Assembly: GCA_036362985.1 (NCBI GenBank)
Contig: JAYGXS010000008.1
Coordinates: 26,316,850 to 26,380,849 of the forward strand
DNA length: 64,000 nucleotides
Origin: Ligula intestinalis
Lineage: Eukaryota; Platyhelminthes; Cestoda; Diphyllobothriidea; Diphyllobothriidae
Direction: 5' to 3'
A program made the translations under genes and the position numbers. Each line of letters begins with the position of its first letter. Within the stretch, counting starts at the first letter, position 1. Below, piece after piece: positions 7,643 through 62,975 of this stretch. Under the pieces are notes generated by a model, which worked only from the letters and a program-made list of their open reading frames with translations, was not told the DNA's origin and ran no database searches.

Positions 7643-7803
7643 AACCGGCAAGACAACGAGCCAGTAGCCCAATGGTTAGAGCGGTAGGCTTCTGATCAGA
7701 GGGTCAAGATTTCCAGCACCGGGTGGTGCACCACTTGGGGTTGGGTAGGTCTGGCTGACGACGGCTGATAAGTCAGAAATGCCCATTCCAGTCTCCTTTT
7801 TCT
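7643..7803 (+). mobile_element. SINE B: tRNA-like head plus hammerhead ribozyme
   Basis: The head has an A-box-like TAGCCCAATGGTTAGAGCG at about 7666-7684. The B-box position near 7703 is mutated. A hammerhead fold follows at 7749-7793 and a T-rich end near 7803. Such a unit would be transcribed by RNA polymerase III and could self-cleave. The architecture parallels the Sm-alpha repeat of Schistosoma; homology to it is not claimed. Confidence 0.75.
7749..7793 (+). ncRNA. Hammerhead ribozyme of SINE B (7.7 kb copy)
   Basis: Stem I is GTCTGG with CCAGTC (5 of 6 pairs). The core is CTGACGA at 7755-7761 (position 7 is free). Stem II is GGCT with AGTC around a GATA loop, then GAA. Stem III is a near-palindrome, ATGCCCAT. 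Predicted cleavage is 3' of T7787. All conserved core bases are present. Confidence 0.7.
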
Positions 7804-8215
7804 TTGCACGGCGAAAGATGGTTATTGAATAAAAAACATAATCCGAAGGCTGACTTTGGCTGGAAAAAATATATAGGAGGTCGGTATACGTCGGAAAATG
7901 CGTCATGAAGCATTTGAAAACAATAAAACAAGCAGAAGCATCAAGGCACTTACTGTTGCCCGCGGAATTTGTTTCCGAACGCGGTCGCCACCAAAAGCCG
8001 ACGTATCGGTCGAACTCCTCCTGAATTACGAAGGCCGGTGAGCCCGCAGACAACGCAGCTGGTTTTAAGTATTTTTTAAAGAAAAGAAGAGACTAAGACA
8101 CGCTTGGTTGACGTAAACAGTAAGAAGCCAGTAAGAAGAGTATTTAGATTGCATAAAAATGGACCATGTACCATCACGTGCTACAATACACGCCCACTTA
8201 TGATACATACTAGAC

Positions 8216-8290
8216 TGGGATTGGGTATGACTGGCTGACGACTGCTAATAAGCCACAAATAGCCATTTTAGCCTCCTTTATATCTGCCGG
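8216..8290 (+). mobile_element. SINE B 3' fragment with decayed hammerhead
   Basis: It retains GACTGG, CTGACGA and the stem II AATA loop (8229-8273). GAAA has become CAAA and the stem I partner has drifted, so it should not cleave. The tRNA-like head is missing. Confidence 0.65.
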
Positions 8291-8346
8291 ATCCACTTCA
8301 GACACTATACTGCTTAAGCAGGTTACCATCAAAACGCTAATAGTTT

Positions 8347-8830
8347 TGGCAGCTCAACGAGTTTCCTCCAGCCTTCGAAAGCGACTATGGACTTGATGCG
8401 GTATTTCTGTCTTCAAAAAGGTCTGGGTGTACCGTGAATCTGTACGCTCTGTTCTTCTATATGGATGCGAATGCTCGGCTATGCGCGTGAAAGATGAACG
8501 TAAACTGAAGGTTTTTGACCACTACGACTTGAGGACCATTCTTCGAGTGAAGTAAATCGACTTTGTCTCAAATAAGACAGTCCGCACTCGCTGCGACATC
8601 GCAAGGATATCCAAGGCAAACCAAGAAAGGTGAATGAGGTGATTTGGACACATTCTTTGCTGTCAACCTCTCAAGCTCAGTGTTGCTACCCTCGACCCGT
8701 AACCGCTACCTAATTGAAAAACGCCGAAATGGGGGTCAACTCAAAACCTGGCTCGACTCAGTCCGTCAGGACATGGAAGCTGTTCTTGGACCTTTGGTTA
8801 TCGGTCTCTGTCGTTGGCTAACAAAATGAA
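8347..8830 (+). pseudogene. RTE-like LINE, C-terminal part of reverse transcriptase protein
   Basis: Frames read SSLRKRLW, VYRESVRSVLLYGCE, MRVKDERKLKVFDHYDLRTILRVK, VSNKTVRTRCD and GGQLKTWLDSVRQDMEAVLGP. This is the connection/C-terminal region of RTE-clade LINE proteins from flatworms. Stops and frameshifts are scattered, for example the TAA after ILRVK near 8552. Its last part, about 9355-9480, is split off by the fold-back element at 8835-9353. Confidence 0.75.
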
Positions 8831-8884
8831 CTTAACTGTATAGACAGAAAAGGAGAAGGCGTTTTGATCACCGGAATCATAATT

Positions 8885-8935
8885 TTATTCGGCTGAGCTT
8901 TCGGGCCCTTAGTGGAGTCTATCGTCAGCGATAAA
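8885..8935 (-). ncRNA. Hammerhead-like motif, left arm of fold-back element
   Basis: The minus strand has CTGACGA at 8928-8922, a GACTC/GGGCC stem II with one A-C mismatch, and GAAAGCTC at 8902-8895. Stem III would be the palindrome AGCU. Confidence 0.45.
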
Positions 8936-9249
8936 ACCGTCGAGGACAGATTAGGCATGGTATGTGATATTATTACGTCCGACTGCTCACTGGGATTTCA
9001 TCGGTCCTTGATTCTCATGACCCGGCTGGGCATGGTAGCCGTAGGACGGTGTGCAATTCGACGCCTACTCCCGCAGCAATGCGATCGATCGCTTCATACG
9101 GGTTGGTTCTGATTGGGTCCTCGGAAGGTGAGCACGTAGACACCAGCTTATGAAGGCCTTCGGATAGCCATTCCGGTCGCGCAGATATCGGGCATCACAT
9201 ACTTTTTCTTCCACGTTACTGCAGTGCATCTAGATTCTGTTGAACGCTT

Positions 9250-9300
9250 TGACACTCTGGCGGTGGACTCCACTAAGAGCCCGAAAGCTCAGACGAATAA
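9250..9300 (+). ncRNA. Decayed hammerhead-like motif, right arm of fold-back element
   Basis: The plus strand has CTGGCGG (degenerate core) at 9257-9263, stem II GGACTC/GAGCCC and GAAAGCTC at 9283-9290. The core mutations make cleavage unlikely. Confidence 0.4.
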
Positions 9301-9353
9301 AATTATGCTTCCGATAGCGAAACGCCTTCTCCTCCCCCTCTATCTGTATACAC

Positions 9354-9480
9354 ATACCTGGGATGCAAACACTGGCCTACATTCGTGAACCCAGCTGTCC
9401 AGATGGGCTGCCACGAATCGTCACGCGTGGAGAGGTGCAACCAGTGACATCATCATCATCGAGGCCGGCTAGATTACAGC
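9354..9480 (+). pseudogene. RTE-like LINE end, continued beyond the fold-back insertion
   Basis: The reading CHESSRVERCNQ and the alternative-frame HAWRGATSDII..EAG match the usual end of this LINE protein (compare 13830-13880, HAWGEVPYVTSL). This suggests the fold-back element landed inside an existing RTE copy. Confidence 0.55.
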
Positions 9481-9489
9481 CGCAACAAG

Positions 9490-10065
9490 TACAACCCAAG
9501 TGCTTTTAAATTTGTAAACAAAGATTCAAAAAACGTTTATGACGTACCACCCGATGGGAGATTGGTCAGATTTACAATTGCGGGCGGGTTTGGGCTGGCA
9601 TCAACACCGGCTACCGTCGTTGGCCTTGGTACGGCAGCGAGTATGAGATCGATGTCTGATACCATGGCGACCAGATAGGGATTCACTGGGCATATAGCAG
9701 GTTGCAGAGGACTAGAGACTGGTATGAGGGTTGGCGGGGTGACTCCGCTGACGGGACCTTCAGCATTTTTTGCGGATAGAGTCTAAAATTGGGTGGATGA
9801 AAACTGTAAAAAAGCCTCAGTAGGAAAGGTATTAGCGCTTTTAGATGCTATGCTAAGTAACACTTTATGCAAACAGCCAGCTTGAGGAAGCATCTGTAAA
9901 TGGTTTACAAGAAGTTACCCACAGAGAGCGGCTAGCCTCTAGCACATTAGGGGAGCTGTAACCGTTTGCAGCAAAACAGCCCTACTTTCAAAATAAAACT
10001 TGGTTACCACGTTATTGTCAGGCGATGGTGTAATACTGTTATAGCCTTAAAGTGACTGAGCACAT
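9490..10065. other. No recognisable gene
   Basis: Short frames only and no repeat matches noticed. Confidence 0.45.
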
Positions 10066-10070
10066 CACGC

Positions 10071-10396
10071 TAGTACAGTACGCGCCAGAATTCGTACGAC
10101 ATGCCGACATATGCGAAATATTTATACTCTTTCACTAATCGGCATTGACTCAAGTTGTGATAGTGATTAGAATGTTGTCTATTCTGAAATTATTTCAGTC
10201 ATTATAGGATGCGAGAATTTTAATGAGCTTCGTTCTGCCCACTAAAAAGACTTATGTACTGTAAAAAGTGGCTACCTAACTAGCATGCATTTTTATCATT
10301 GACTTTTACTGCCTTTATGAATTCAAATATATTTTATGGAAAAAGTAAACGAAACAATTATTTTCGTACTCGTTTGGTAGCAAATTACGCCTTACA
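10071..10396 (+). repeat. Left arm of a large palindrome
   Basis: The reverse complement matches 10733-11060 along the whole arm with moderate divergence; examples are the CAAATATATTTTATGG block at 10324 and the CGCGCCAGAATTC region at 10081. The segment 10258-10390 also recurs in direct orientation at 17455-17600 and, more diverged, at 17940-18062. Confidence 0.8.
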
Positions 10397-10732
10397 GAAA
10401 TGGCATGTTTCGGTTTTAAAAATGTTTCTAAATTGCCGAATAATTTCGAAACCTATTGATTTTTACACTCGAATTCAAGGTTTACAAACTGCGCCCTGTG
10501 TACATCCTATTTAAAAGAAAGGTATGTTTTCACATATAGTTTGAGGAAGAAGTCCCATAGTCCTCATAAAATGTGTCAATAGGTGCGGAACATGTTTTAT
10601 ACAGTATAGGCAGCAGTAATAAACTGACGGATACGATGTATTATGAATGAACATCTCACAATCGTAAAAAAACCATAACAAGAAACTGTTTTAAAACCGA
10701 AAGATATCTTTTCGTCAAGTACATCATTTAAA

Positions 10733-11060
10733 GAAGGCGTAATTTTCTACCAAACAAGTACAAGAAATAAATATTTCTTGCGTGTTTTCCATAAAATATA
10801 TTTGAATTTATGCAGGTAGTAAAAATCAATGATAAAAACCCATACTATTTAAGTAGTTACTTTCTACAGTACACACGTTTTGTTAGTTGACAGAACGAAG
10901 CTCGTTAAAAAGCCCGCATACTATCATGACTGTAATGACTTCAGAATAGACTACACCATAATCAGTATCACAACCTGGGTCAATACCGATTACCGAAAGA
11001 GTATCAATCGTTCGCATATGTTGGCATGTTGCACAAATTCTGGCGCGTACGGTACTTCGC
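10733..11060 (-). repeat. Right arm of the large palindrome
   Basis: Inverted partner of 10071-10396, separated by a spacer of about 335 bases. Short frames within (for example at 10880-11158) are by-products of the repeat. Confidence 0.8.
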
Positions 11061-11162
11061 CGCCGCTGAAGTGTAAAGCTTTGAATTCTATCATAACTAT
11101 CAACAGCCAAAATCTGTCTGCTACTTTATTGACGGTGCCGCTGCTGTTGATTGTGTGACTGC

Positions 11163-12060
11163 TTACAGTGGATGATGCCACCAGATGGTGTACCACCAAA
11201 AATTATCACTATGCTCAAGGTGCTCCACCACCGCGCGGGTGCTAGCGAATAACAACCTTTCAGAACCGTTTGCTATTCGGTCTGGCGTTCAACAAAGCTG
11301 TATTCTGTCACCCAACTACGACTGGATTCTCGGGAGGGCCCTGTGTGAAGGGGAGTATCCGGACGCTGGTCGACTGACCTCGACTACGTCGACGATATTG
11401 CGCTTTACTGGCTTCAAGCTTTGGTGACCTACAGCCTACGCTGTCACGAGCGCACGAGGTCGCTGAATCGGTTTGTTTTTTTCCATACCTCATGGTGAAT
11501 TATGACACTAGATGGTATACCAACAAAATCATTGCGATGATTAAAGAATACTAACATTCCACCCCTGCACGGGTTCTTGTTTGTTACAAACTTTCCGAAC
11601 TGTCCGCTCTTGAGTCAGGTGTTTGACAAGACTGTGTCCTGTCGCCCATGCTGTTTAACTAAACCATCTACTGGATTCTCAGGAAGACCCTACACGAAGG
11701 GGACGGTGCTCAGCTTTTACCCGGACGCCGGCTGACTAATGTCGACAATGCTGAGGATATCGATTTACTGGTTTCAAGTTTTGGTGATCTACAGTCTACC
11801 GCATCACGGGTGAACGAGGTCGCTAAATCGGTCTGTTTTTTCCATAAGCGCTTCGAAGGCCAAAGTGTTTTGATGCTGCAACTCTGACCAGGAGAAGGAA
11901 CCTCTCTAGATTACTGGTTGTCAACTTCCAGAAGTAGACAGTTTCAAATACCTCGGAGTGAGGTTGCTGCCCAATGGATAGTGTAAGAATGACATTGTCT
12001 CCGGAATGGACGCAGCTCGTAGAAAGTGTATTTGGACCTGACGTAATATTTATACTGCCG
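11163..12060 (+). pseudogene. RTE-like LINE reverse transcriptase, two tandem copies of the palm segment
   Basis: The first copy (11163-11490) reads FAIRSGVQQSCILSP..DWILGRALCEG, then DYVDDIAL in another frame. The second (11491-11850) reads ESGV-stop-QDCVLSPMLFN and WILRKTLHEG, then NAEDIDLL where YVDD should be, followed by SFGDLQS, NEVAKSVCFFHK and FQIPRSEV. These are RT motif B (SGVRQGC.LSP) and motif C (YxDD). Both copies have stops and frameshifts, and the second has lost the catalytic Tyr-x-Asp-Asp. The offset between copies is about 327 bases. Confidence 0.75.
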
Positions 12061-12109
12061 CGAAGGTTCACGTGTACTGTGCATTCATTCAGTGTGTCCT
12101 TCTCTATTG

Positions 12110-12345
12110 CTGTAGACTTTGTCTTTACACCGGAAACGGAGGTGGGAGCGGCGAGCGAGTGGGCAGGTTCCCCACGAGTCTGCTTTAACTCTTGTTTTCG
12201 TTAACGGTAGTTCGCTGCGTCGTTTCTGCTTGCTGCAGCCTTCGTACAGCTTGCCCAGCTTGCCTCAGTATCTGCTTTCGCTTGCTGCAGCGTTTGCTGC
12301 GGCTTGATGGAGCACGCGGTACCCCTCGTTTAAATCGACGGAGGA
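12110..12345. other. Insertion of unknown origin within the RTE remnant
   Basis: Just before 12110 the LINE reads VHVYCAFIQCVLLY. It resumes near 12346 with DAGLCV and EDERK. The intervening 235 bases, rich in TGCTGCAG-like and CTTGC motifs, do not belong to the LINE frame seen elsewhere. Confidence 0.4.
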
Positions 12346-13930: not shown

Positions 13931-14415
13931 CACAGATCATAGGATAAGCGAATGGGCCCGACGGCCTCGAGACCGGCTGCGCAGAGAGTGAAAACCGTAC
14001 AAGAAGAGCAGGCAGATGCAAGGCTTACCCGGGAGGATGGGCAGCTGTCCGCTCGGTTATCGAAGAAGTGCAATAGCTGGTCGCCCATCAGCACCAGAAT
14101 ACAGCCTGTGTCTACGTCCACCTTGAGATCGGAGATCCCTGAGTACTCCATCCGCATGCGTTCTCGCAGAAGACTTGCCGCCAGGGAGGTTTCCCGCCTA
14201 TTAATAAGAGAGGAGCAATTGGGAGGACGATAGGGGGCGTCGGGGGAAGGACAATCCATAGAGCAGAAACGTAGACCAAACCGGGTAATACTTAAAGAAT
14301 ATGGCAGTGGCCTAGCAGCCATCATCAGGCAGTCATACCCGCTAACCTCAAGTCGCGCCCTGCCCCAGGGCACAAACTCGCGGACTTTTGATCGGAAGTC
14401 GAACGCTCTAAACAT
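13855..14415 (-). CDS. Unrecognised 186-codon open frame
   Basis: It is one of the longer clean frames but resembles no family I know. It overlaps the RTE end on the opposite strand and, near 14330-14370, a minus-strand SINE B fragment that supplies GYDCLMMA. It is probably a chance frame across repeats; coding status is doubtful. Confidence 0.12.
   Translation of the reverse strand: MFRAFDFRSKVREFVPWGRARLEVSGYDCLMMAARPLPYSLSITRFGLRFCSMDCPSPDAPYRPPNCSSLINRRETSLAASLLRERMRMEYSGISDLKVDVDTGCILVLMGDQLLHFFDNRADSCPSSRVSLASACSSCTVFTLCAAGLEAVGPIRLSYDLWQWRDVLVLDRAVIMPDLVDLSDVT
14323..14372 (-). mobile_element. SINE B fragment (minus strand)
   Basis: The reverse complement contains GGGTATGACTG.CTGATGATGGCTGCTA, the start of the hammerhead region of SINE B. 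The rest is lost. Confidence 0.55.
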
Positions 14416-14457
14416 TGCACCACGGGCTCGTAGTCTTGCCTATTTAGATTAACTTTC

Positions 14458-15184: not shown

Positions 15185-15530
15185 AAAGGCTTTCAACTCG
15201 CGTTTTCCGAATTGGGTTAACAAACTCAAGAAAATTTGTCAAGAACTCCCTAAATAATGAAGCCAGTCTAGTAGTCATTCTGGTGGATTCTAGGTGATTG
15301 CTTAGGAAATTCTGCTTGGGCAGTCAGCTTGCTGTTCCGTATTGGTGGATTCCATACGAGCGGTAAAGTTGGGCGGACAAAATCGATTCAAGTGTGATTA
15401 AATTCACGGCGCAAGGCGTGACGTTTGTAGCTCAACTAGTAGACCATTAAATTCGTTTTAAGGCCTTCCAGGAGATGTGGGTTCGACTCCCGCCGAACGC
15501 AACGAATTTTTTCACAACTGGGTCAACGAA
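15185..15530 (+). mobile_element. SINE A copy with preceding unit tail
   Basis: It begins with a decayed unit tail (CGAATTGGGTTAAC near 15209), then the body (GTGGATTCTAGGTGATTGC, TTGGTGGATTCCATACGAGCG). The tRNA-like segment at about 15422-15500 has TAGCTCAACTAGTAGA and GGGTTCGACTCCCGCC, followed by TTTTTTCACAACTGGGTCAAC. Confidence 0.75.
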
Positions 15531-15849: not shown

Positions 15850-17440
15850 TTTATATGGGAACGGAGTACAAGTTAAAGCAAGTGTGCACCTCTGAGGAAG
15901 CCTTCAAGGTAAGTTAGACGGTCCCACCAAACTATTCGAAGTCTCTGGATCAGGGCCCGTTAACAACACCAGAAGCGACTTTTATGAGGTTGAGGAAGCC
16001 GGTATTGTATGCATAAAAGAGCCTCCTGCCCGAAATGGCCAACGGTATTTTAAGTGCATGCACTCTTCCACACTCTCTCTTTGACCCTTCCCCCCTGGAC
16101 CGGCTCTACCAAACCCTTCGTGTCGCGTAATCCATGCCCCGACCCCTCCTATTTCCACGATTCGCTTGGATGGAAAGACAAACATGTTTTAACTTGCGTC
16201 CCATTCCCACATACATTTAGTGACCCGATGAAATTTTTTTGAAAGTTTACGTAGACTCGCCAACTCTGTTTTTGCTTCTGCTCTGATGGGAATTTTCGCA
16301 ACCTCAAATCCATTTTCTATGGATGATGATGTCTCATGAGCCAGAACTGGCCATTCCAGTTTCGCCTTACTTTTGGTAGATATGTTACTTTGCGCATACC
16401 ATTATGCCCTGTGCGGCTGCTGGCGCGGCCTGTAGTGGACTCTAGCAGCCACTTAGGACCCAAGATCAACCGCTGACGCCTGGCGCCTTTAGTGTGCGTG
16501 CCCATTGCCTCCTGAGGTTAGGCACTAGCTGTCCTTGACCGACACCAGCCTTCGCCCATCTCAAGGTCGCGCGCCCACGCTAGTCTAGACATCAGCCGTG
16601 TGATTGGCCGCCGTAACAAAGCATGCGCTAACATTGTGGCGATTCCTGAGGCTCTCGTCAGTTGAGAATTGACGCCCTGGCAGCCGGATTGTAGTCATCC
16701 GAGAGTCAAAACTCTTTCAATCTATTCTCCTATCCTTCTGCAGAATGCACTATTCCTGAAAATCTGGCTTTCCCACCGTCTTTTCTCCTAACCTAAAGGA
16801 ACCATGGGCCTGGATGATCGTAGCTGTTAGGGTTAACCTTCTTAGCCTTAACAAGTGTAAATAAGCTTCTAGTTACCGCACACCAGATAGCTAAGGGCTT
16901 GACGAGAACACAGAGGTAATGTGTAATCGTAATCGTAGTCATTTTTCAACTTACGGGTGAGCTCCCGGCGCTTGAAAGAGCAGCGGTTTGGAGCTCAGTT
17001 CCGCATCAGTTGGGGGCAGTGAGGACGAACAGACATCCGCGTATAACAGCGAAGCCTCACGTGACGGGAGGTCATCTTGGATGATACCAGTGTAGTACAG
17101 GCGACAGGAAGTGGGCTGCAAAGTGGTGAGGCGTAAGCAGTGCCACATATATAGTTCAAGTTCTGGATTATGCAAAAACATGCAAAAGCTAATCAAGCCT
17201 ACCTACGTTAGATTGACTATCTCGTTAAGTGTGCTGTCCTCTAGAAAATATCACGATACATTAATATACTAAAATACAGTATGGCGAGTGCTGCAAGAAA
17301 CATTCCGCTGTTTGAAAAGGACCGGTAATCACTCGCAAAATAGCATTGAGTAGGGTTGCAATACTGTTTATCATGCAGTCCAATTTCAATTATTTTCAAT
17401 CACGTTAAGATACCGACTCTATGATACATTTCTTTTTGAC
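15850..17440. other. No recognisable gene; one SINE B tail
   Basis: Bases 16318-16382 contain GAGCCAGAACTGGCCATTCC, the hammerhead 3' half of SINE B. The short frames at 15982-16505 and 16951-17196 match nothing known. Confidence 0.45.
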
Positions 17441-22928: not shown

Positions 22929-24421
22929 ATGGGGGAAAAGTTATGGCGAGCATGCCGTTACGCGAACCGGCGACCATATGCATTTAATTATTGCGAATCC
23001 TCTTGCTGTTACAGTGGCACTGTTGCAGATGCAGAAACTATGACCATGCCGAAGGAGATCGCGGATGCCAAGATAGGGACGGATACGGTCATCCGTAGCC
23101 ACGCGGAGCCGCAGCCTTGTATGCTCTATAAGCATCATCGGAGGTAAGCTGATATCGGTGTAAGGGAAGTTTTTGGGGAAGAGCAGCAGCGGGAATAATT
23201 GTATGTATAACAATCTGTTAATTCTGTAGCCCGGACCTCAGATCACCAAGGTCCAAGCGAGTGGATTCAACCACACCATACGATAAGCTGGCTTTCTCGC
23301 TTAATTCGCCAGGACTGGTGGCTAACCTCCAAGGCAAAGGCCTTCTCCCCATGGACCTACGGTGCGCGTGCGGCGGTAGGATGGCCCAACAAATCCTGAC
23401 CCAGAATGGCGATGGATACGTCTTCCGGTGCGTGAAGTGCCACAGGAAGAAGTCAGTGCGGTTCAATTCCATTTTTTTGGCAGCTGGTTAACATTGCGGA
23501 AGTTGGCAAACATGTGCCTGGCATTCGTTGTTGGAAAAACTGTGCAGGAAGCTGCGGCCGTTTGCGGATTAGCCAATGAAGCGGCTGCAAGTTGGTTCGC
23601 TATATTGCGAAATGTGTGTTCGAACACCCTAAATGGGGAAGCTTCCACCGCAGGTGGACCGGGTGTGAAGGTAGACATACATGAGTCTATGATCGCCCGC
23701 AGGAAGTACAATCGCGGCAAGACCACCAGGCAATTGTGGGTCCTGGAAATGTACGATACGGTGAAGAAGAGGGCTGTCCATGAGCAGTTAAGTAACCACT
23801 CGGAGCAAAGCTTGTGTTCCATAAGAAGGAGGCGGGTAAAACCGGGTAGCGCAATTGCAGCAGATTGCTGGAGCAGCTACTGCAACCTCGAAACCATGGG
23901 GTACACCCACGATACGGTGAACCACACGTTAGGATTCGTGAATAGGTACACGGGTATCCACACGCAGGCTGTGGAGGCATTTTGGAGTCGCCTCAAACGG
24001 GGACTGCGGCAATTTGTCCCTATCCCAGAACTGTCAGTGTGGGCCCAGGTGGAGGAAATCCAATACCGCCTGTGGTTAAAGTTTCGGAAGAACGCCATGC
24101 CTGAAGCCTGGGAAATCTTCTGCGGACACATTTCTGAACTGTATCCCGTAAACGTGTCCCAAGGTAAAGGAGTTCTTCTTCGGCACCTAACAACCAACCG
24201 ATAGAAGCCAGCCAGCACACTGGGAGACGTTTGGTAAATAACAACCTAGATGGCATGGCCTGCAGTCTGTTGCGGCCGGTCGAAGCCGGTGACAGCATTG
24301 AGGAGGAAGAGAGCGGAATCCCAGGCTCATCTAACCGTCCACGTAAGTCCCATTAGTAGGAGAAAATTAAAACAATTTTTTAGAACGAGAAGGTGCTTGG
24401 CTAATGCCGGCGGAAGGATAA
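22929..24421 (+). CDS. Merlin (IS1595/ISXO2-type) transposase gene, four exons, frameshifted
   Basis: A cut-and-paste DDE transposase. My model is exons 22929-23143, 23230-24163, 24205-24342 and 24384-24421; every junction is GT-AG and keeps one frame, ending at TAA 24419. A zinc ribbon (CxC about 23365, CVKC about 23433) precedes SVRFNS and SWLTLRKL. The catalytic core follows: VDIHES and RRKYNRG, then AADCWSSY, VNH..GFV and VEAFWSRLKR, the last holding the final Glu. Two defects show: the first catalytic Asp is His (codon 23680-23682), and one T seems missing from the T run at 23472-23478, shifting frame. The exon 1 start is uncertain. Merlin elements are known from schistosomes. Confidence 0.82.
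23144..23229 (+). other. Intron 1 of the Merlin gene
   Basis: GTAAGC to TTCTGTAG, 86 bases. Removing it joins the frame ending KHHR to PDLRSP.. in phase. It is inferred from splice consensus and frame only. Confidence 0.5.
24164..24204 (+). other. Intron 2 of the Merlin gene
   Basis: GTAAAG to CGATAG, 41 bases. Unspliced reading stops at 24202-24204; splicing opens a frame NNNLDGM...EEEESG. Confidence 0.55.
24343..24383 (+). other. Intron 3 of the Merlin gene
   Basis: GTAAGT to a T-rich TTTTTTAG, 41 bases, with a good polypyrimidine end. The frame continues 12 codons to TAA. Confidence 0.55.
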
Positions 24422-28299: not shown

Positions 28300-30300
28300 T
28301 TAAATGCTTATACTATTTGCCTTTAAAATCGATAGTGTAGAAGACAGCCTAATATCGAGTGGAAGGTTGTTCCAAATAAAAGCATATTTGGAGGTAAAAA
28401 AGCGAAAACGGTTAGATGTGGAGCTATGGGGTAGTAAAATTATCATGGAAGAGTTATGAATGGCGTAAGGTCGGTCTACCGGAAGGAGAGCGTTAATTTG
28501 TGGGAGATAAGGACTATTGTTAACGCGAAACAGAAAGCATATACCAGCTTCGAGTCTTCTTACCCAAAGAAATTTAATGTTTGCTAACTGATATCTATCT
28601 GCATAACACATACCAGACCCAGAAACAGAAAATATTTTACGAATGAAAACTTGCTGAACCTTTTCAATCTTACTACGGTCATTGTGGGTCATGAGACCAG
28701 AAAGCGGACAGCAGTATTCTAGTATACGGCGAACAAACAGGCGGTAAAGTTTTCACTTCATTTCTGGAAAGTGCCGTACCGGCGCTAAAAAATCTAAATT
28801 CCAAAATTCCAAAAGCAAATATCTGTGCGGCCTTGGCAGAAATTCGATCTGCATGAGGTGATAATGCAAGCTAATTCGTGTAAGAAAGACCCAAATCCTT
28901 TATCATAGATCTTTCTAACAGTGGAATATTTTGGAAGATAATGGGTCCAGGAAGCCTTGTGGGACCAAAACACATGAAACTAGATTTGGATTGAGAAAAC
29001 ACTATCTGCCATGTAGCGCTCCAACTTGAGAGGATACGCAAGCCTGCGTTTACTTTATCAACACAACTACTGGCCGTGTCCTTATAAAATGAATAAATAC
29101 ACTGAAGGTCATCAGCATAAATGAAATTCTCCGAATTATTCAGCATTGTTGAAATTTCAGTTACTTAAAGAATGAAAAGGAGGGGACCTAAATCCGTGCC
29201 TTGTAAAACGCCACTCGTGATCGCCTGAGGCATCGTGTAGCTATTGCCTACTAAGACCTTCTGGCTGCGGTTAGACAGATATGAGGCAATGAAATCAAGG
29301 AGGGGAGGCCTGATGCCTAGGGCTTCCAGTTTCAATAAAAGGTGCCTATGCGGCACCTTGACAAAAGCTTTACTAAGGTCAAAGTAAATCATGATGACTG
29401 ATTGCTGTTCATTACGACTTGAAGTAACCAGGTTAAGGAATGCCAAGTGGCAGGTTTCGCATGATCTTCCAGGTATAAATCCATGCTGTGAAGCGTTTAA
29501 TCGTTTATTTTCTTCACAAAAATCGAGAATTTGATTAAAAATGATCTTCTCCAAAAGTTTGGCTAGGGCTGGGGTTTTATGAGCACCTCGGTAGTTATTT
29601 ACGTCCGAACGAGATCCTGACTTGAAGACCGGAAGAATAACAGATATCTTCCATGATTCAGGAAAGAGACCGTTTAGAAGATAAGCTGAGAATAAATGAC
29701 TAAGCCATCGGGGGAAGCAGAATGCTCTCTTAATAAGTGAATTTGGAAGGCCGTCAGTTCCCAAGGAGTGTGAGTTTTTTAGAAGGATAATGTGCTTACG
29801 AATTACTTATATGGAGAAATCTATGGTACTAATAGTATTGACTGAGCATGGCTGAAACGACGGGACTGGTTCAGATTCCGTCGTAAGGTGCTTTGCAAAG
29901 AACGAACTGAACAGTTCAGCCTTCTCAGACTCATCTTGCACCAATTTTTTATTTTCATTCAGCAAAAGGGGGATTTGGTGACCTCGTTTAGCGGAGGAAC
30001 GACGACAAAACAGTTGGGCAATAGATTTTGCAGAGTTTCACTTGCTGAATGCGCAAGATTCCCTCTGTTTGTCACGTGCAAGACGAATCTTAGACGCTAA
30101 TTCAAAAATCTCTGCGATTCTAAGGTGCAAAGATGATGAACTAATAGACTGGTCTTTCAACTGTCTTTGCAATTTCGTCAGTCTAGACAAAAGAAAATGA
30201 GGAATGGTGGGGTCCGAAGCATAAGGCTTAACATTTTTGATCGGCACAAATTCCAAAATGCTTTTTGAAATTGCCGTCATTCAGTCACAGATAATCGTTG
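28300..30300 (-). pseudogene. CR1/Jockey-like LINE reverse transcriptase, nearly complete RT region
   Basis: In order on the minus strand: a pre-RT helical region (30280-30038); RT fingers and palm (29764-29165) with MGTDGLPNSLIK, HGFIPGRSCETCHL, IYFDLSKAF and SGVLQGTDLGPLLF; motif C YADDLQ (29146-28871); and the C-terminal block YAFIWNNLPLDIRLS (28692-28300). Both catalytic positions (Asp in YFDL, YADD) are kept. A single in-frame TAA at 29167-29165 separates motif B from YADD, and a frameshift lies near 28870-28700. The usual Asp after SKAF is Val. It copies its RNA at the target site in active relatives. It is the best-preserved LINE here but is inactive as read. Confidence 0.88.
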
Positions 30301-40089: not shown

Positions 40090-40150
40090 ACAATATGTTT
40101 ATTCGCCTGACGTTTCGATATCCGTCACGGATTCGTCATCAGACTTTTCT
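40090..40150 (-). ncRNA. Hammerhead-like PLE terminus (best core of the ACGU class)
   Basis: The minus strand has an exact CTGATGA (40142-40136). Stem II is GAATCCG with CGGATATC (seven pairs, one bulged A, TGA loop), then GAAACGTCAGG and AATAAACATATTGTCCCAGCGATCG. The last part matches the PLE end at 1713-1746. Stem III would again be palindromic ACGU. Stem I is weak (one pair). No PLE coding sequence is visible beside it. Confidence 0.5.
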
Positions 40151-42204: not shown

Positions 42205-42312
42205 ACGTTCACCAAGGAACTCGCTCGTTCTGCGTTCTGCCTTGGGGCTCATTCTCGAGCCCAGCCAGCAGCCGCACAGAGGCTAGTAGTTTAGGCAGGT
42301 AAACATTGCCAG
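42205..42312 (+). repeat. Dispersed repeat R6
   Basis: It has GAACTCGCTCGTTCTGCG, CTTGGGGCTCATTCTCGAGCCC and GCTAGTAGTTTAGGCAGGTAAA. It is followed within 30 bases by a reversed SINE B piece. Confidence 0.65.
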
Positions 42313-42333
42313 CAGAGGCAATGGTGAGAAGAA

Positions 42334-42400
42334 TGGTAAGTTTCTGCGTCATTAGCCGTCATCAGCCAGTCACACCCCGAGGCTCAAACCTCCAATCTCC
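42334..42400 (-). mobile_element. SINE B fragment (minus strand)
   Basis: The reverse complement reads GCCTCGGGGTGTGACTGGCTGATGACGGCTAATGACGCAGAAAC. It holds the stem I strand, an exact core box and GAAA of the hammerhead, but stem II and the 3' strand have drifted. Confidence 0.6.
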
Positions 42401-42465
42401 TGCTCAGAACTCCAACATTCCAACCATTGAAACATTCATGAGCGACTGTCAATGCTGCCGATCTA

Positions 42466-42613
42466 AATTGGCAAGGCAACGAGCCATTCGGCCTTCTGAT
42501 TAAAAGGTTACGGATTGCAGCCTCGGGTAGTGTACCACTTGGGATTGAGCATGACTGGCTGATGACGCCTAATGAGCCGGTAATGGCCATTTCAGTCTCC
42601 CTTTTCTTTGGCG
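42466..42613 (+). mobile_element. SINE B copy
   Basis: GGCAAGGCAACGAGCC, a damaged tRNA-like head, then GATTGAGCATGACTGG and the hammerhead region, ending GTCTCCCTTTT. Confidence 0.7.
42553..42597 (+). ncRNA. Hammerhead ribozyme of SINE B (42.5 kb copy)
   Basis: Stem I is GACTGG/TCAGTC (all six pair, one G-T). CTGATGA is exact and stem III is the perfect palindrome ATGGCCAT. GAAA has become GTAA and stem II has one mismatch, so activity is doubtful. Confidence 0.6.
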
Positions 42614-42619
42614 GCAATC

Positions 42620-45560: not shown

Positions 45561-45589
45561 GACACGGGTGTGTCGACAACGATCTCGTG

Positions 45590-45735
45590 GCTCAATGATT
45601 AGGGATGTTGACTCTGATCAGAGAGCTCGAGAGTTCAAGGCTCAGGTTTGAAACGACCTAAGTCTGGGTTTGACTATCTGACGACGGCTAATAAGCCAAA
45701 AATCGCCTTCTACTCTCCCTTGTTTTTGTCAGTAA
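45590..45735 (+). mobile_element. SINE B copy, first unit of a tandem array
   Basis: The tRNA-like head has TGGCTCAATGATTAGGG and GAGAGTTCAAGGCTC. The hammerhead region at 45671-45715 has CTGACGA and a perfect GGCT-AATA-AGCC stem II, but GAAA is AAAA and stem I is damaged. Confidence 0.7.
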
Positions 45736-45759
45736 TGTCCTTCTGCCTATATCCTTGGC

Positions 45760-45850
45760 GGATGTTCGAGTGAGAGCTCTGATAGCAACGTGGACGGACG
45801 AGTGTGTCCTCTAACATATCGGTGTACGCGTCTCTATCACTGTATATTCC
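45760..45850 (+). repeat. SINE B array spacer, unit 1
   Basis: GTGGACGGACGAGTGTGTCCTCTAAC and ATCGGTGTACGCGTCTCTAT recur at 46100-46145, showing that SINE B plus this spacer is a tandem unit of about 293 bases. Confidence 0.65.
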
Positions 45851-45855
45851 CGATC

Positions 45856-46150
45856 AAATACCGACAAGACAACGAGCTAGTAGCCCAATGGTTAGGGGGT
45901 TTGACTTTGATCAGGGAGGTCGCGAGTTCGAGGTTCGGGTGTGACCCCACTTGAGTTGGAGTATAACTAGCTGACGACGGCTAATCAGCCATAACTGGCC
46001 ATCCTAATCTACCTTGTCTGTGTGGGTAATGTCCTTCTTCCGATGTCATTAGCCGCCTTGCGGTGTAGGCTCGAGGGTGAGTTCCAGTGGCACCATGGAC
46101 GGACGAGTGTGTCCTCCAACAGATCGGTGTATGCGTGTCTATACATACAT
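45856..46150 (+). mobile_element. SINE B copy, second unit of the tandem array
   Basis: The head is well kept: TAGCCCAATGGTTAGG (A box) and GCGAGTTCGAGGTTCGGG (B box). The hammerhead region 45964-46010 and the GTGTGTCC spacer follow. A further partial spacer lies at about 46235-46272. Confidence 0.75.
45964..46010 (+). ncRNA. Hammerhead of SINE B (45.9 kb copy), partly decayed
   Basis: Stem I is AACTAG with CTAATC: the second pair is A-T where other copies have G-C, a compensating change. The core is CTGACGA. Stem II is GGCT/AGCC with an AATC loop. GAAA is ATAA, so cleavage is doubtful. Confidence 0.5.
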
Positions 46151-46857: not shown

Positions 46858-47060
46858 TCACCGATTGGTTACGGAACTCACTCTTTCCGTTGTGTTTTGC
46901 GACTCACTCATTCACTCCCGAGTCCAGCGGCTACCATACGTTGGCACAGAAATACATGACCGATAAAGACAGGGCAGTCCGGAATGGTCATTTCGGGCAT
47001 GTTAGCCATCATCAGATAGCCTGGCCGGTTTAGTCTCCCTTTATCGGTAATGCTTTTCTG
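46858..47060 (+). repeat. R6 repeat fused to SINE B tail pieces
   Basis: GATTGGTTACGGAACTCACTC to TTCACTCCCGAGTCCAGCGG matches R6. Bases 47010-47024 are a reversed SINE B core (CCATCATCAG), and 47028-47060 a forward SINE B end (TTTAGTCTCCCTTTATCGG). Confidence 0.55.
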
Positions 47061-47150
47061 CCTATAATATATGCTAGCGGTTGAGCGGTTGATGGTTGTG
47101 CTCGAGAACGAGTCCGAAGGCACAATGGAGTGAGTTAGATCCGCACCGAT

Positions 47151-47330
47151 CGAAACCGGCAAGGCAGCGAGCCCGTTGCGCAGTGGTTAGAGTGTTGAAC
47201 TTCTAAGAACAAGGTCACGGATTCCGGCCTCGGGGGTCGCTACCAGTGGGGTTGGGTATGGCTGGCTGATGACAGCCAATAAGCTAGAAATGGTCATTTT
47301 AGTCTCCCTAGTCTTTGTTGGTGATGTAGG
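47151..47330 (+). mobile_element. SINE B copy
   Basis: ACCGGCAAGGCAGCGAGCCC, then an A-box-like GCGCAGTGGTTAGAGTG, a decayed B box (GGTCACGGATTCCGGCC), the hammerhead at 47260-47304, and the end GTCTCCCTAGTCTTTGTTGG. It is the most complete copy besides 7643-7803. Confidence 0.78.
47260..47304 (+). ncRNA. Hammerhead ribozyme of SINE B (47.2 kb copy)
   Basis: Stem I is GGCTGG/TTAGTC, six pairs counting G-T. The core CTGATGA and GAAA are exact. Stem II begins A-T where the 7.7 kb copy has G-C (compensating), with an AATA loop and one mismatch at the loop end. Stem III is ATGGTCAT, a palindrome with one change. Predicted cleavage is 3' of T47298. Confidence 0.68.
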
Positions 47331-49430: not shown

Positions 49431-49439
49431 CTATCCCTA

Positions 49440-52260
49440 CTCACAGTGGCAGCCGTAGGTTTAATCACAGGTGGGTCAGGCTAGCCGCCCAACCCAACCT
49501 ATGTGGAATGTGCCAATCCATCACAATAAACCTAATTAATTATTGGACCAAAGAAAGCATGTATTGGTACGAAGTCCGGGCAGCCTTTCGCGACCACGCT
49601 GAACGTGTACGGGTGAGGCTGGATTTAGGTGCGTTTGTCTGTACGTTGCGCAATGGTGCAAAGCTGTGTGCAAAAACAACTTCAGCCTATTCGCAAACAG
49701 AAGACGGCTGGCGCCCGAAAGCGTTTCGTCGCAAACTCATCTGTGGACTTAACAAGGGTGGCAGCGATCGTATGAACACGGTTGTGACGTTAGCCTCGTT
49801 CTACATCATAAGCGATGATGTCTGTGTCTGTTTCGTTGTGCTGTCTCTCTTTATCTCTGCTTCACACTGAAAGAGCACCATAGTTTCCGGATAATTGCCC
49901 ATGCGTCAACTCTGCATGATCTCAGCTCGGCCAATGCCTGTTTTTGTGAAGTGTCTGAACATCTGGCAGTCTCACACAGGTGGGCACCGCTCAAACACTT
50001 TTGTATGAAATCCAGGTACTTGCATGTTGGGGACCAGGTCTTGTACCGAGTACACGTAGACGAGGTCATATGCTACATTAGCAGCTGCGCTGTTTCCTGC
50101 CTCAGTCCACTGACCGCAGGCTTGGCGGCAACTGGGGCCTGGCTATGGGGATATACGGCTCAGCGCCCTGTCCTCTGACGCGCTTTAAATTAGCACAATG
50201 CGCTTCAGACCACGGCTTCGAAAGACGCCAACTGGCGGGTTAACTAGAACCATGCCGTCAGCTCAGTGTTTGTTTGTCTTGAATTGCTGACTGAAGCCGC
50301 AGTATGTCCTTCCCACTGTCACCCTTATTTCATTACCAAGGCGAGGTATCTGAGCCAGGGGGTGACTGCACGCTAAAGAGGCGGATCTGGCGACGCCAAT
50401 CATTTGGCCTCTCCCCTGCCTTCGGTCTTCTTGGCTTCGTTATGACACCGGGTCTAGGTGGGGGAATGGGGGAAGAGTGCGATAGGTGCAGCGAAAGTCT
50501 GCTCTTAATATAATATAATTCACATGCTTGCTTCCAGCCACCTGCTTCGATGCACGCGGGGTGAGCATGGTCGAAACAGATGGTTGAAATCCCCTCTCCA
50601 GACACTCCAAAATGCGATTTATCCCAAGCCATGACTCAAGCTCTGTGTTGTTGTCGGGATGGGGGGGGGGCGGTCGATTCCCAGTTGATTGTGTGGACCT
50701 ATCGCATAGTGTTAAGGCTATTAACCCATTACCTCTCGGTAATCTCATATGAGATCACTTAAAGATTAAGAGCTTTCGTAATTATCGGTCTGTACATACG
50801 TATATTTAACTTCCACGCTATATCTATTGGGTATATTTCTCTGATATCCACATGAGATTTTTAAAAGTTTGCTCTAAATTAATTCATATACAAGTTAAAA
50901 AAGTCACAAATGTACTCCAAGTTTCATAACAAAAATCAAAGTGGTTAAAATTATGGGAGGTAATGGCTTAAGGTTAACCCTATCAGCTGCGATCTTCCAG
51001 GCCCTGTTTTCTTATGAGAGGAGAGGGAAGTCATGGGAAGGCCAGAATAGGAGGACGAATATATTCTTTACAGAATGAATGGGAGAAAAGACTGTAAGAA
51101 AATGACTATCAGACGCTCGCACAACCGCAAGCCAGTGGATGGTGTCTGAAGTGAGGTCTGCTTGGCAGTTGTCGCATGAGGACCTCTGTGATTGGCTGTT
51201 ATAGAGACCGGAAACACTGAGCACTTCCGAAAGTGCACTTCGACTTGAGCCAGTTACAACAGGCGTTCGAAAGTACATTTCGTGTTGAACCAGTCACAAC
51301 AGACCTGTATAATTGTAATGGGACGAGTGACCGACCATTCTAAACAGTCCGTCTTCGTGCGCATGTCTGGAGTCATACTGTAAGGGCGTCCGCCTTCTGT
51401 GAGACTCCAAACGTAGCCGTACAGTAGCCTGGTATATGCTGTGGGCAACACACGCAGTCGGGTTGTTTAATTTTGTCAGTCATGTTTAGTTTTTCCTGCC
51501 TTTGGAATGCAATGGGAGAACGAAGGGTGGTGAATGTGCCGTACAGGATTCCGTTTCGCCTTGAAAAAAGCCGCCATGCGCAAGTCACCAACGCCCGCAC
51601 TCGATCCGGTGCAGGTCCTCATGATCCGCGTCATGGGTTTGGGGAGGTGGTGTGTGTACGCGCGTGAAAGCGCACGAGATCGGGCTTCATTTCATAAAAC
51701 ATCCACTCGGACAGAAATCAGCTGAGATGCATCGGGACCTGGGCCGTCCCCCTCCCTCGCCTCCAGTTAACTGCCGGCTGTTTCGTTCTGTAGACACGCG
51801 ACAAATAGCAGCGCAACCCGTGCCTGCCGTGTTCATAACTGCCTCCGCAAAAACTAGGCCCCTTTGCTGGCCTGGAAATGGGACTGAAAGGGAGCGCAAT
51901 CCTGGTGTCGCACGTATACCTGCATCGTGATGGTTGGTCTCCTTTAAAGTGCGTTCTAGGCAAATCAGTGCTTAATGCATATGTAATAGGGACGGGCGCT
52001 GGAAATGTACTTTCTGAAGCCTGAGTTTTCCAACTTAGAGTTCAGTCCTTTTTCTTACAACTTTCCTACCATGCATCTACAGTCCCATCTTGTTTCACTT
52101 GATCCCCTCCAGAGACTATTACGCGATCACCATGATCTGCCCTCCGCCATTTTGTTGTACCTGTAGCTTCTTTACCGGGCGCGAACTCCAGTACATTTGG
52201 CTGATGTTTCATCATATTCTTGACTTGGAGGAGTTGGCTTTTGATGCCACGACTATTTTA
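49440..52260. other. No recognisable gene
   Basis: Frames up to 120 codons (49508-49870) lack family resemblance. A 40-base tandem pair lies at 51225-51304 and a G run at 50656-50668. Confidence 0.4.
51225..51304. repeat. Tandem pair of 40-base units
   Basis: Units 51225-51264 and 51265-51304 share CGAAAGT.CA.TTCG, then CCAGT.ACAACAG.C. Confidence 0.75.
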
Positions 52261-52270
52261 GCCGTCTTGT

Positions 52271-52298
52271 GCTCCTCCTCCTCCTCCTCCTCCTCCTC
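52271..52298 (+). repeat. (CTC)n microsatellite
   Basis: About nine CTC units. Poly-Ser/Leu and poly-Gly frames here are artefacts. Confidence 0.9.
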
Positions 52299-52724
52299 GC
52301 ACTTTTATGGCCAATTCACTGCGCGTTTGGCCCGCGTACTCTACACAGCCATTACTGCAGTGCATCTTGCATAGGACGGCTTGAGGACGTGGTCCGAGTA
52401 AGATGTCGTCCGCACTGCTGCGTTTTAAGTCCCCTTCTACCAAACTCAGTGTAGTAATGTCTGTTCAGCCTACGCGGGTCAAGTACGCAGTGAACTTACA
52501 GTACGAACGTGAGAGAGAGAAAGCACAAGACTGTTTTTTGGTCCAATGACCAAGTATTACTCATTGCTCATCACACACTCCCGTTCGACTTCACGCAGCC
52601 GCTCGCCTGCTTATATTGAACAATGTTTGACACGAGACTGTGGTCTAGACATCAAAACTTAGCCCACTCCTTCCGTTCGCATGACCGCAGTCACTGTTAG
52701 TGAGCGATAACAGTTTAAAGTAAT

Positions 52725-52930
52725 TTTAGGTACCCTTTTTAATTTGTGAGGAAATTGCTGCGTGAACTTTGCGTAAATTCTTAGGGTTCAGTGCAGATGT
52801 TAATTTGAACGCTTGAGGTTAAATCCCTGAATGGCTGGCGAATAACCGCGTAATATTCACAAGCTGCCAATTGACAGGCAGCAATATAAAAGTACTTAAC
52901 TATTTACCATACTGGTAGTTGCCTTTTTAC
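52725..52930 (+). repeat. R4 repeat, partial dispersed copy
   Basis: GCGTAATATTCACAAGCTGCC and CCATACTGGTAGTTGCC correspond to the R4 landmarks at 44507-44590. Confidence 0.55.
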
Positions 52931-52934
52931 CCCT

Positions 52935-54350
52935 CTCCAAGAGGAGACGAGTAAACGCAAGAAGCTGTTACCGATTAAGGTGCATGCGGAAAGTCTTCTT
53001 GGCTCATTCACTCGACAAGGGTTGAGTTGAGGAATCCTGTCATTCCGCTCAAGTGAAAGACGGCGAAACGATGTGGCAGTAGCCATCTGGTCGGAAGCGT
53101 CACCACTTCAGGCCAGCTGGCATGTATGTGCGTGCGTGGTTTAGCCCCATTTTGTGGCCTCATCAAACTTCCCCGAAGGCTATTTTTAATTGGGCACACT
53201 GCTTACCACAGCCAGATACTCTTTAAAAATGGTCCCGCCTACTGACACATTTCACATGTAAACCCGCTTGTGTTCACACTCCGTCCGCAGACTGGACAAC
53301 CCAACGGCGTTGCTCCACTGGTTGGGCGTCGTGTCACAGCAACATGGTTGCTGTGCTAACGTTTACTGCCTACTTTGCGGTGGCTCATTCACACCTTTGA
53401 TTCGTTTTCGGCGGACTGACTGTCAGTATGTCAGCGTATGGTGTTTGCAGGACATGGGTTTTGTTTGGAAACGAGGGCTCATCGGTCGGCGGTGCCAGTG
53501 CACTTTATCGTACAGGAGTAGCCTCGTTTGGCAACTTATATTATTAAGAGATTAGTACTCGAGGACGCGGCTGTGGTTATCAGAAGTACAAATCTCTGAT
53601 AAAGACCTGTTAGAGCATTCCCCTAAACACTTGCGGACAGTCTGCTGCTCCAGTTAGTGCAAGCTACCGTGCTCAGGGCGGGGAAAGAGCGACTTCCACG
53701 CGTTTGCAAGCCACGGAGCTGACTGCCTCGCCCGGCAAGCCCGGCAGAATTGCTTTCAGCTCCGGATTCTGCGTGTGCTGATTGGATAACTTTTTACAGG
53801 TGCTTCTATTGGCCTCGTGGAGGGGAAGGGGAGGGAGAGGCAGCCCCCTGCTTAGCTGGCACTTCCCCCCTAAATTGACAGTGACGTAGTGGAGATAATA
53901 AGTTCGCAAATTTACTACCTTAATGACCATAATTGCTTCTTCCTGGCTTTCACCGCCCCCTCCTGCTCCTACTACGTTTCACAGTAAGAACCAAGAAAAG
54001 GAACTCCCCCCTTTCGCCGGTACTAGACACCGCCCTGGGGGAGGATTCTTTTTCACGTGCCCTGCACTTTTTTGATTATTATTACGCCAATTACCTTTTT
54101 CACGCCGACATGCGGTTAGAAAGTACCCCCCCCCACCTATCGCTTACCCCGCTGTTCCCAATGAGATTGCGCCTCAATTTTTAACTGCTTCCTTAGACGT
54201 GAAGAAGTTCAGACAAGTTCACTAACCCTCTATCCTCCAGTCAGGACTTTGCATCTCCACCAAACTGGCAGTCTCCAAGCGCCCGGCTGTCCCTCTAAGT
54301 CCATCCTGTTGTCATGGTAGCGCGCAGGTTACGAGACACGTTCGTCCCGT
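52935..54350. other. No recognisable gene
   Basis: Short frames (95 codons or fewer) without family resemblance. Confidence 0.35.
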
Positions 54351-54357
54351 TGCCCCT

Positions 54358-54445
54358 TGTGGCTTGGTATGGCTGGCTGGTGACGTCCAGTAGGACAGAA
54401 ACTACCACTCAAGTCTATCTTAACTTTGTTCGGTTTGCGTATGTA
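54358..54445 (+). mobile_element. SINE B 3' fragment
   Basis: GGCTTGGTATGGCTGG, then the hammerhead region and AGTCTATCTTAACTTTGTTCGG. The tRNA-like head is lost. Confidence 0.65.
54370..54415 (+). ncRNA. Hammerhead of SINE B (54.4 kb copy), core mutated
   Basis: Stem II is GTCC-AGTA-GGAC, fully paired, although two of its four pairs differ from the GGCT/AGCC consensus. GAAA is kept. The core is CTGGTGA (A6 to G), which should abolish activity. Confidence 0.5.
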
Positions 54446-62974: not shown

Positions 62975-62975
62975 A

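Follow-up and report, generated by a model that had tools for sequence, protein, structure and literature searches.

A tRNA-headed hammerhead retrozyme family of the tapeworm Ligula intestinalis, probably mobilised by Penelope machinery

The stretch of DNA analysed here, the window, comprises 64,000 nucleotides of the tapeworm Ligula intestinalis (C8:26316850-26380849 within an assembly of 644 Mb) and contains a family of short repeats in which a tRNA-like head is joined to a hammerhead ribozyme motif. We consider it probable that this family is a tRNA-headed retrozyme without long terminal repeats (non-LTR retrozyme), similar in architecture to SMalpha and with Penelope machinery as its likely mobiliser. 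A more specific reading, towards which we incline only slightly, is that of a Penelope-dependent short interspersed nuclear element (SINE), i.e., a hammerhead retrozyme driven by RNA polymerase III (Pol III) and inserted by a Penelope-like reverse transcriptase that uses two RNAs and works on each strand of the target. The unit, its tandem arrays, two 3' ends, a bias towards head-to-head pairs, target duplications around single copies as well as around head-to-head pairs, and covariation in the fold were all seen in the sequence. Long interspersed nuclear elements (LINEs) are the usual partners of SINEs, and Penelope elements would, if our reading is true and general, join them as a partner class. 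It would then also name the enzyme that spreads animal retrozymes and SMalpha-like SINEs.

Insertion structure and a proposed cycle

The unit measured about 293-311 bp and consisted of a tRNA-like head with Pol III boxes, the hammerhead and a non-coding spacer. The GC content of three units was 46.8-49.4%, and the longest ATG frames in three doubled units reached 35, 93 and 103 aa, none of them a protein-coding frame. Units stood head-to-tail and often head-to-head, tail pieces preceded the heads, at 7496 and at 47028, and a genome search located tandem arrays with a period of about 310 bp elsewhere, the longest with roughly nine or ten units. Long satellite-like arrays of this period were noted at C6:27360003-27362954, C7:10332025-10333419 and C3:4453810-4455033.

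Two subfamilies, A and B, have the hammerhead and the architecture in common and differ in head and spacer. Subfamily A showed two recurrent 3' ends, designated S and L. By eye, nine S ends fell within a zone of about 7 nt that extends from CACTT to CACTTCTTCAT(C); in an independent genome search, 15 of the 80 hits ended in the same zone (query 363-376). Six non-tandem L ends stopped within 1-2 nt at CATTCATTC(A), also by eye; the search string for L ends demanded a match that far, and earlier stops would escape it.

The orientation of neighbouring copies was uneven. In the 51 first sequence sources, neighbours less than 500 bp apart were direct in 14 cases, head-to-head in 14 and tail-to-tail in 3, although self-complementary matching may account for the pairs that overlap in L018 and L049. 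Sixty-seven distinct best-scoring loci, which were the best 40 candidates from each of two genome searches and not a random sample, gave 25 head-to-head and 3 tail-to-tail junctions, and 11 of the 25 overlapped by 1-8 nt.

Target duplications were 8-15 bp long where found. At single 3' ends an exact upstream repeat of at least 8 nt of the right flank was present in 8/16 cases vs 27/238 in the control; one of the eight, at the minus-strand end of L013, is a chance match to the hammerhead, and one of the 16, in L016, continues into the spacer and is not a true end. In ten sampled head-to-head pairs both outer edges lay at, or slightly beyond, element 3' ends of the S or L type. By eye, one duplication of 9-11 bp enclosed the whole pair in seven of the ten; two of these seven have one mismatch and two, including one of the former, have a piece beyond the L end. 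Exact shared flank words of at least 7 nt occurred in 5/10 head-to-head pairs vs 8/90 mismatched pairs; of these five, one sits in an AT repeat, outside the seven duplications recognised by eye. L013 illustrates the arrangement, with an S end on the left, an L end on the right and ATGCTTAT on both sides as an 8 bp duplication. Because both edges were 3' ends and a single duplication was shared, we read a head-to-head pair as a single insertion, with element RNA as the template on which each of the two target ends was extended.

Similar structures are described for Penelope. A typical Penelope insertion contains direct pseudo-long terminal repeats (pLTRs) and an adjacent inverted pLTR, most often head-to-head, with target duplications of 8-10 bp; one inverted pLTR may carry an additional 31-bp tail on its 3' side (PMC3846280). 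With purified Poseidon protein, both strands are cut and extended, reverse transcription begins within the RNA, and the tail lies between the two start sites (PMC11167929).

The cycle that we infer would involve Pol III transcription, self-cleavage, circular RNA and a Penelope-like enzyme. Pol III would read the tandem units, and the hammerheads would cut the transcript into units, probably as double hammerheads via the palindromic stem III. A putative Penelope-like reverse transcriptase/endonuclease would cut both DNA strands with a stagger of about 10 bp, and copying would start at one of two internal RNA sites, approximately 36 nt (S) or 150 nt (L) past the cleavage site. Extension of one end would give a 5'-truncated or tandem copy. 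If both ends were extended, the two cDNAs would join, in many cases through microhomology, and the result would be a single head-to-head insertion enclosed by one target duplication. The family is very large and preserves its insertion structure, and the idea of mobilisation by Penelope is therefore directly testable by ends, duplications and a Poseidon-type in vitro assay.

Hammerhead fold, head and abundance

The consensus was a type I hammerhead. Stem I is GACTGG/CCAGTC plus an outer GGG/CCC, followed by CUGAYGA, a C.A step, stem II with its loop (GGCU-AAUA-AGCC) and GAAA; AUGGCCAU forms stem III, which has two pairs and is capped by a GGCC loop, and AUU precedes the cut. The C.A step is at the base of stem II, where SMalpha has a G-C pair. 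Individual copies diverged widely from this consensus. A third hammerhead variant, found in L014 (1160-1232) and L046 (5451-5511), has A.C instead of C.A, a longer stem III with ACA/UGU, and GUA before the cut. In L014 it is joined to a subfamily A unit in the same orientation.

An Rfam search, which the original prediction had proposed as a check, gave no hammerhead in the window at E <= 5. With 121 bases around 47260 as the query it gave HH9 at 14.2 bits (E 0.41), and 131 bases around 7749 gave no hammerhead at E <= 10. The gathering score was not reached at nine further loci either, where HH9 with 25.8 of the 52 bits, from the third variant in L014, was the only match.

A covariation test had been proposed in the same place. 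The alignment, A1, comprised 70 copies (67 distinct) out of 73, after removal of one copy with N and of L014 and L046 from the third subfamily. Since 30 of the 70 rows were chosen by exact core, variation in the core is flattened. The core CUGANGA/GAA was intact in 45/70 copies and in 15/40 of the rows that were not core-selected, these being 4/10 from the window, 1/10 from the C1 sample described below and 10/20 additional copies from L001-L030. For the 67 distinct copies the covariation score was 0.217, compared with 0.189 +/- 0.009 in shuffles (1/500 as high) and at most 0.122 in slid controls. Standard pairs filled 83.5% of the pair cells vs 82.3 +/- 0.5 in shuffles (3/500 as high), cells changed on both sides numbered 22 vs 13.6 +/- 3.2 (2/500), and two-sided changes were seen in all four pairs of stem II. 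The fold of the hammerhead is thus supported by covariation. The individual paired changes named in the original prediction were present, i.e., GTCC/GGAC at 54370, A-T as the first stem II pair at 47260 and A-T in stem I at 45964, but the copy at 47260 has one broken pair in stem II and that at 45964 two in stem I. A competing helix, formed by stem I with loop III, appeared in some minimum folds and was rejected, as it lacked covariation (68/500 shuffles as high).

Self-cleavage is predicted from the sequence. The original prediction held that the palindromic stem III may favour dimers, and support for this came from part of the copies only. Four consensus-like young copies had a single hammerhead at -12.0 vs a minimum of -17.5 kcal/mol, and a double hammerhead at -44.7 vs a cofold minimum of -46.5 kcal/mol. 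Over the 45 core-intact copies the mean energies were -3.6 vs -16.0 kcal/mol for the single and -22.3 vs -40.0 kcal/mol for the double form; the gap is wide in both, and the effect is not seen in the average copy. That young consensus-like copies come near their best fold only as dimers bears on the persistence of hammerheads with a weak stem III. Vertebrate retrozyme hammerheads reportedly depend on dimers (PMC7229834). Young copies such as those in L014, L021, L030 and L001 kept every core residue and every stem pair. Mean pairwise identity in 14 full-length copies from the window and the sample was 69% in the hammerhead, 59% in the first 60 columns of the head and 82% in the last 11 columns, the CTTTGYCGG tail.

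The head had been described as tRNA-like with A and B boxes. Box A (TRGYNNARNNG) was found in 14 of 46 heads, with a shuffled mean of 3.5 and none on the reverse strand, and box B (GWTCRANNC) in 27 of 46, with a shuffled mean of 1.3 and seven on the reverse strand. Both boxes at a spacing of 30-65 nt occurred in five of the 46 heads (shuffled mean 0.02, reverse strand 0). The boxes were therefore above shuffles, but no head matched a tRNA in Rfam (window and nine loci) or in ARAGORN (window and 14 loci). At a relaxed threshold ARAGORN reported, for the majority string, only a doubtful tRNA-Leu(tag) that spans the artificial circular join. Because Pol III boxes are present and neither program recognised a tRNA, we regard the head as tRNA-like in its promoter and not as a tRNA gene. 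It may resemble tRNA-Arg(TCT).

The pattern CTGGCTGAYGACGGCTAATAAGYCAGAAAT, with up to three mismatches, had 5,534 + 5,679 = 11,213 matches in the whole genome and none in the reversed control. The C1 sample, consisting of twenty 10-kb stretches along one contig (200 kb, with 24,716 bases masked), contained 14 family matches, and one iteration of the profile raised the number to 16. Scaled up to the genome, this may correspond to some tens of thousands of copies, which is a rough estimate from a single contig. No exact match to a 23-base core pattern was found in the collections of viral and prokaryote contigs.

Contrary points, alternatives and known systems

Several results weigh against the reading proposed here. 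No clear duplication was seen in 3/10 sampled head-to-head pairs. S and L ends were combined in 10 of the 14 pairs (of 16) that could be classified by eye, the other four being L/L, which is near the general share of S ends (9/15). The 5' ends were scattered, and only L003, L053 and L056 begin at the cleavage site, L003 having been noticed for this very reason. Among the 20 stretches examined, 18 had been chosen since their BLAST hits began at the element start of the query; 16 of the 18 continue upstream of the cut into a complete or partial hammerhead, while L053 and L056 begin at the cut. The remaining 5' ends lay, by eye, about 26 to 84 nt upstream or up to about 115 nt downstream of the cut. 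On the side of the fold, the core was damaged in 6/10 aligned window copies, and two of the five fold measures stayed within shuffles, namely pairs with a two-sided change (10 vs 8.3; 130/500) and pair types (99/500). Position 10.1-11.1 at the base of stem II, where a paired base is expected, was a C.A mismatch in 57/70 copies, and the predicted minimum fold of the monomer differed from the hammerhead in all five copies folded. As to the enzyme, Poseidon insertion in vitro is independent of hammerhead cleavage (PMC11167929), Pfam finds no credible GIY-YIG match in the second frame (62952-63386) of the Penelope-like element in the window, and by eye nothing but the hammerhead core is common to this element and the retrozyme, no systematic comparison having been run.

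Two candidate features of the 5' ends were discarded. A cleavage footprint was not significant, and a preferred stop in the T-loop of the head, suggested by five partner ends at query 257-265 in one search, was not repeated in a second. Because such a footprint is lacking and Poseidon inserts without need of a hammerhead, the ribozyme may serve the release or circularisation of units and not the insertion itself, or it may be a relic.

In one rival account, in our view rather unlikely, the hammerhead is catalytically dead or irrelevant, its RNA structure being conserved for recognition by the reverse transcriptase, and the family merely resembles retrozymes. Such an account would suit the C.A mismatch, the non-hammerhead minimum folds, the lack of a significant cleavage footprint, the hammerhead-independent insertion by Poseidon (PMC11167929) and the columns around CTTTGYCGG, which are conserved (82%) above the hammerhead. 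It sits poorly with the covariation of the stems, with a hammerhead conserved above the head and with young copies (L014, L021, L030 and L001) that keep the full core and all stem pairs; moreover, cleavage of 22% in one hour is reported for another retrozyme hammerhead, in which U-U occupies the base of stem II (PMC7229834).

That the family is an ordinary tRNA SINE moved by a LINE, with the hammerhead as a relic and with inverted pairs due to twin priming or to adjacent independent insertions, we regard as unlikely. Target duplications and 5' truncation are normal for LINEs too, the 5' ends are scattered, and the window contains a reverse transcriptase fragment at 29165-29806 (PF00078, E 1.2e-16), which we take to be LINE-type. 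Twin priming, however, would not yield two outer edges that are each a natural 3' end, and in the ten sampled pairs the edges lie at or slightly past S or L ends; independent insertions would not share one duplication, as 7/10 pairs do by eye. The ratio of 25 head-to-head to 3 tail-to-tail junctions also speaks against it. Satellite DNA spread solely by duplication and inversion at the DNA level would account for the tandem arrays of about 310 bp, but copies are dispersed on both strands with recurrent 3' ends and target duplications, and we consider this origin highly improbable.

Several known systems resemble the family. What is already known comprises type I hammerhead retrozymes of about 300 bp and the tRNA + hammerhead repeats of schistosomes (PMC7229834, PMC4918200, PMC8490949), and hammerheads have been known in animal repeats for more than 30 years (PMC7229834). 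SMalpha/Sjalpha of Schistosoma, compared here by description, are SINE-like and carry a type I hammerhead as does the window family (Ferbeyre et al. 1998; Laha et al. 2000, cited in PMC8490949). The schistosome repeats carry tRNA and are figured as retrozyme-like units, which is a further likeness; theirs is a full tRNA, whereas the heads of the window family match no tRNA model (PMC4918200). Penelope-style insertion ends, present in the window family, find no mention in the available parts of the SMalpha/Sjalpha descriptions (PMC8490949, PMC4918200). The SINE reading of the original prediction holds in that the family is non-autonomous and, as in SMalpha, combines a type I hammerhead with a tRNA-like Pol III head, but its tandem and head-to-head, Penelope-style insertions set it apart from plain SINEs.

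Metazoan non-LTR retrozymes (Cervera and de la Pena 2020, PMC7229834) are alike in having tandem units of about 300 bp, a type I hammerhead with a short stem III, duplications of more than 4 bp and co-existing Penelope-like elements with hammerheads. Retrozyme units are taken as about 150-450 bp with a type I hammerhead in tandem, and the window family falls within this range. Retrozyme GC content is given as <50% in the text and <45% in a figure legend of PMC7229834; the values above lie below the first limit and exceed the second. The window family differs from these retrozymes, as they are described there, in its tRNA-like Pol III head and in insertion structures that point to a mobiliser. 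The axolotl HHR_Amex2 shares a two-pair stem III with a tetraloop and a mismatch at the base of stem II, which is U-U in place of C.A, and the available text mentions no tRNA-like head for it (PMC7229834). Retrozymes occur in many animal phyla, and platyhelminths are mentioned in passing among their hosts (PMC7229834).

Animal hammerhead repeats are said to show no motif from which the mobilising enzyme could be deduced (PMC7761336). Penelope-like elements are named as a strong candidate, since both carry type I hammerheads, are tandem and co-exist (PMC7229834). The window family shares with them tandem and head-to-head insertions, short duplications, alternative 3' ends and a hammerhead just upstream of the 3' ends (PMC3846280, PMC11167929); unlike them, the retrozyme unit has no reverse transcriptase or endonuclease frame and carries a tRNA-like head. 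No report of this family or of Penelope-type insertion ends in retrozymes was found in the literature searched, most subscription journals lying outside the search.

Copies and neighbouring elements in the window

The original prediction listed seven forward hammerheads, and cores like that of a hammerhead were found at all seven sites (7749, 8229, 42553, 45671, 45964, 47260 and 54370). The motif it quoted for them is a consensus, however. Exact GACTGG occurred in 2/7 sites, CCAGTC in 1/7, the palindrome ATGGCCAT in 1/7 and GAAA in 3/7, and the core CUGA.GA/GAA was intact in two (7749 and 47260), compared with 4/10 of the aligned window copies. The pattern TGGCTGAYGACGGCTAATAAG, derived from the copies and allowing up to three mismatches, gave 7 window matches vs 0.00 in shuffles. 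A profile built from the seven copies had 12 matches on both strands at E <= 1e-3, i.e., the seven and five more. The covariance model R1, built from the 70 aligned copies of which 10 came from the window, recovered 11 sites, i.e., the seven and those at 16310-16368 (+), 42319-42378 (-), 46970-47028 (-) and 14267-14341 (-), of which only the last is outside the model's own alignment. Reverse-strand copies, the tandem unit of about 290-310 bp, the head-to-head layout and the C.A step at the base of stem II go beyond the original prediction.

Along the forward strand, the 3' strand of stem I and the tail of a 5'-truncated upstream unit (7496-7527, by nhmmer) lie about 289 bp ahead of the equivalent site in the next copy. 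This copy (7655-7807) has a tRNA-like head and a hammerhead with intact core at 7742-7800 (R1 74.2 bits). It is followed by a headless copy at 8215-8290, found by R1, with a hammerhead at 8222-8280 in which G12 is changed to C; its tail end has the subfamily A form CGGATCCACTTC. A decayed copy on the reverse strand (14267-14431, R1 29.2 bits) has its head from 14431 down to 14308 and a hammerhead remnant at 14341-14267, and a forward hammerhead fragment found by R1 at 16310-16368 has C3 mutated.

One head-to-head pair consists of a reverse partner at 42309-42432, with an intact core and damaged stems in the hammerhead (42319-42378) and a spacer to about 42235, and a forward partner at 42482-42614, whose hammerhead (42546-42604) has A13 changed to T and contains the exact ATGGCCAT. 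A forward head-to-tail dimer was found by blastn at 45577-46142, where 45577-45837 and 45870-46142 are 74% identical with a period of 293. Both of its units have a head and a hammerhead; in unit 1 (45578-45730) the hammerhead lies at 45665-45722 with G12 changed to A, and in unit 2 (45871-46024) at 45958-46016 with G12 changed to T. The second head-to-head arrangement has a reverse partner at 46960-47028 (hammerhead 46970-47028, core intact, stems damaged) and a forward unit at 47028-47327 with head and hammerhead (47253-47311, core intact), which gave the best R1 score, 76.6 bits, and begins, by eye, close to the hammerhead cleavage site. The last forward copy, found by R1 at 54308-54429, has stem II GTCC/GGAC and a hammerhead at 54364-54422 with A6 changed to G. 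A CTGATGA...GAAAC pattern outside the family was also noted at 1678-1708 (+) and 40112-40142 (-).

The Penelope-like element of the window has its frames on the forward strand at 62165-63386, with a reverse transcriptase fragment at 62165-62974 and the second frame at 62952-63386. It is flanked by an inverted terminal piece at 61975-62250 (-), which is 92% identical to 63407-63680, and by a forward terminal piece at 63407-63680 (+). A hammerhead-like core is present at both inverted ends, at 63612-63631 and, as a minimal core by pattern match only, at 62025-62044. The label Penelope-like is putative and draws on a weak Pfam match, the relatives of the reverse transcriptase and the layout. The Pfam match of the fragment, to PF00078 (E 6.5e-5), is below the cut-off. 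The fragment had 698 database relatives; among the 120 listed, one was named a GIY-YIG endonuclease and one contained PF01541. The second frame presumably is GIY-YIG-like. Fifteen of the 120 listed relatives were named by organism, comprising 12 flatworms (Sparganum, Spirometra, Calicophoron, Paragonimus and Trichobilharzia), two from coral or sea anemone and one bacterial metagenome bin, and the best identity to a named relative was 49%. This makes the flatworm family of the original prediction plausible and does not prove it. The 39 best other genomic copies were 95-98% identical and had two sharp 3' ends, at query 218-219 (12 copies) and 226-228 (26 copies), with one copy at 224; 38/39 end near 63672 or 63680. 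Three inverted neighbours within 1 kb were all head-to-head by eye, and so is the copy in the window.

A few further features were noted. The reverse transcriptase fragment at 29165-29806 belongs to a region on the reverse strand at 28300-29806. Matches resembling tRNA and beginning with RCGTTTGTAGCYYA were found at 15421-15501 (+), 55367-55447 (-) and 55774-55840 (+), and in L015 at 290-370 (+), with Rfam scores of 25.9-37.2 bits. ARAGORN reported a tRNA-Thr at 55365-55448, and the RCGTTTGTAGCYYA matches appear to form another family of tRNA-headed repeats. A forward frame at 23380-24204 contains an ISXO2-like (IS1595) transposase domain (Pfam E 2.2e-15), presumably of Merlin type, and had no match in the protein collection at E <= 0.001. 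Two overlapping long frames, at 460-1533 and 1162-1464, contain a tandem repeat of about 162 bp.

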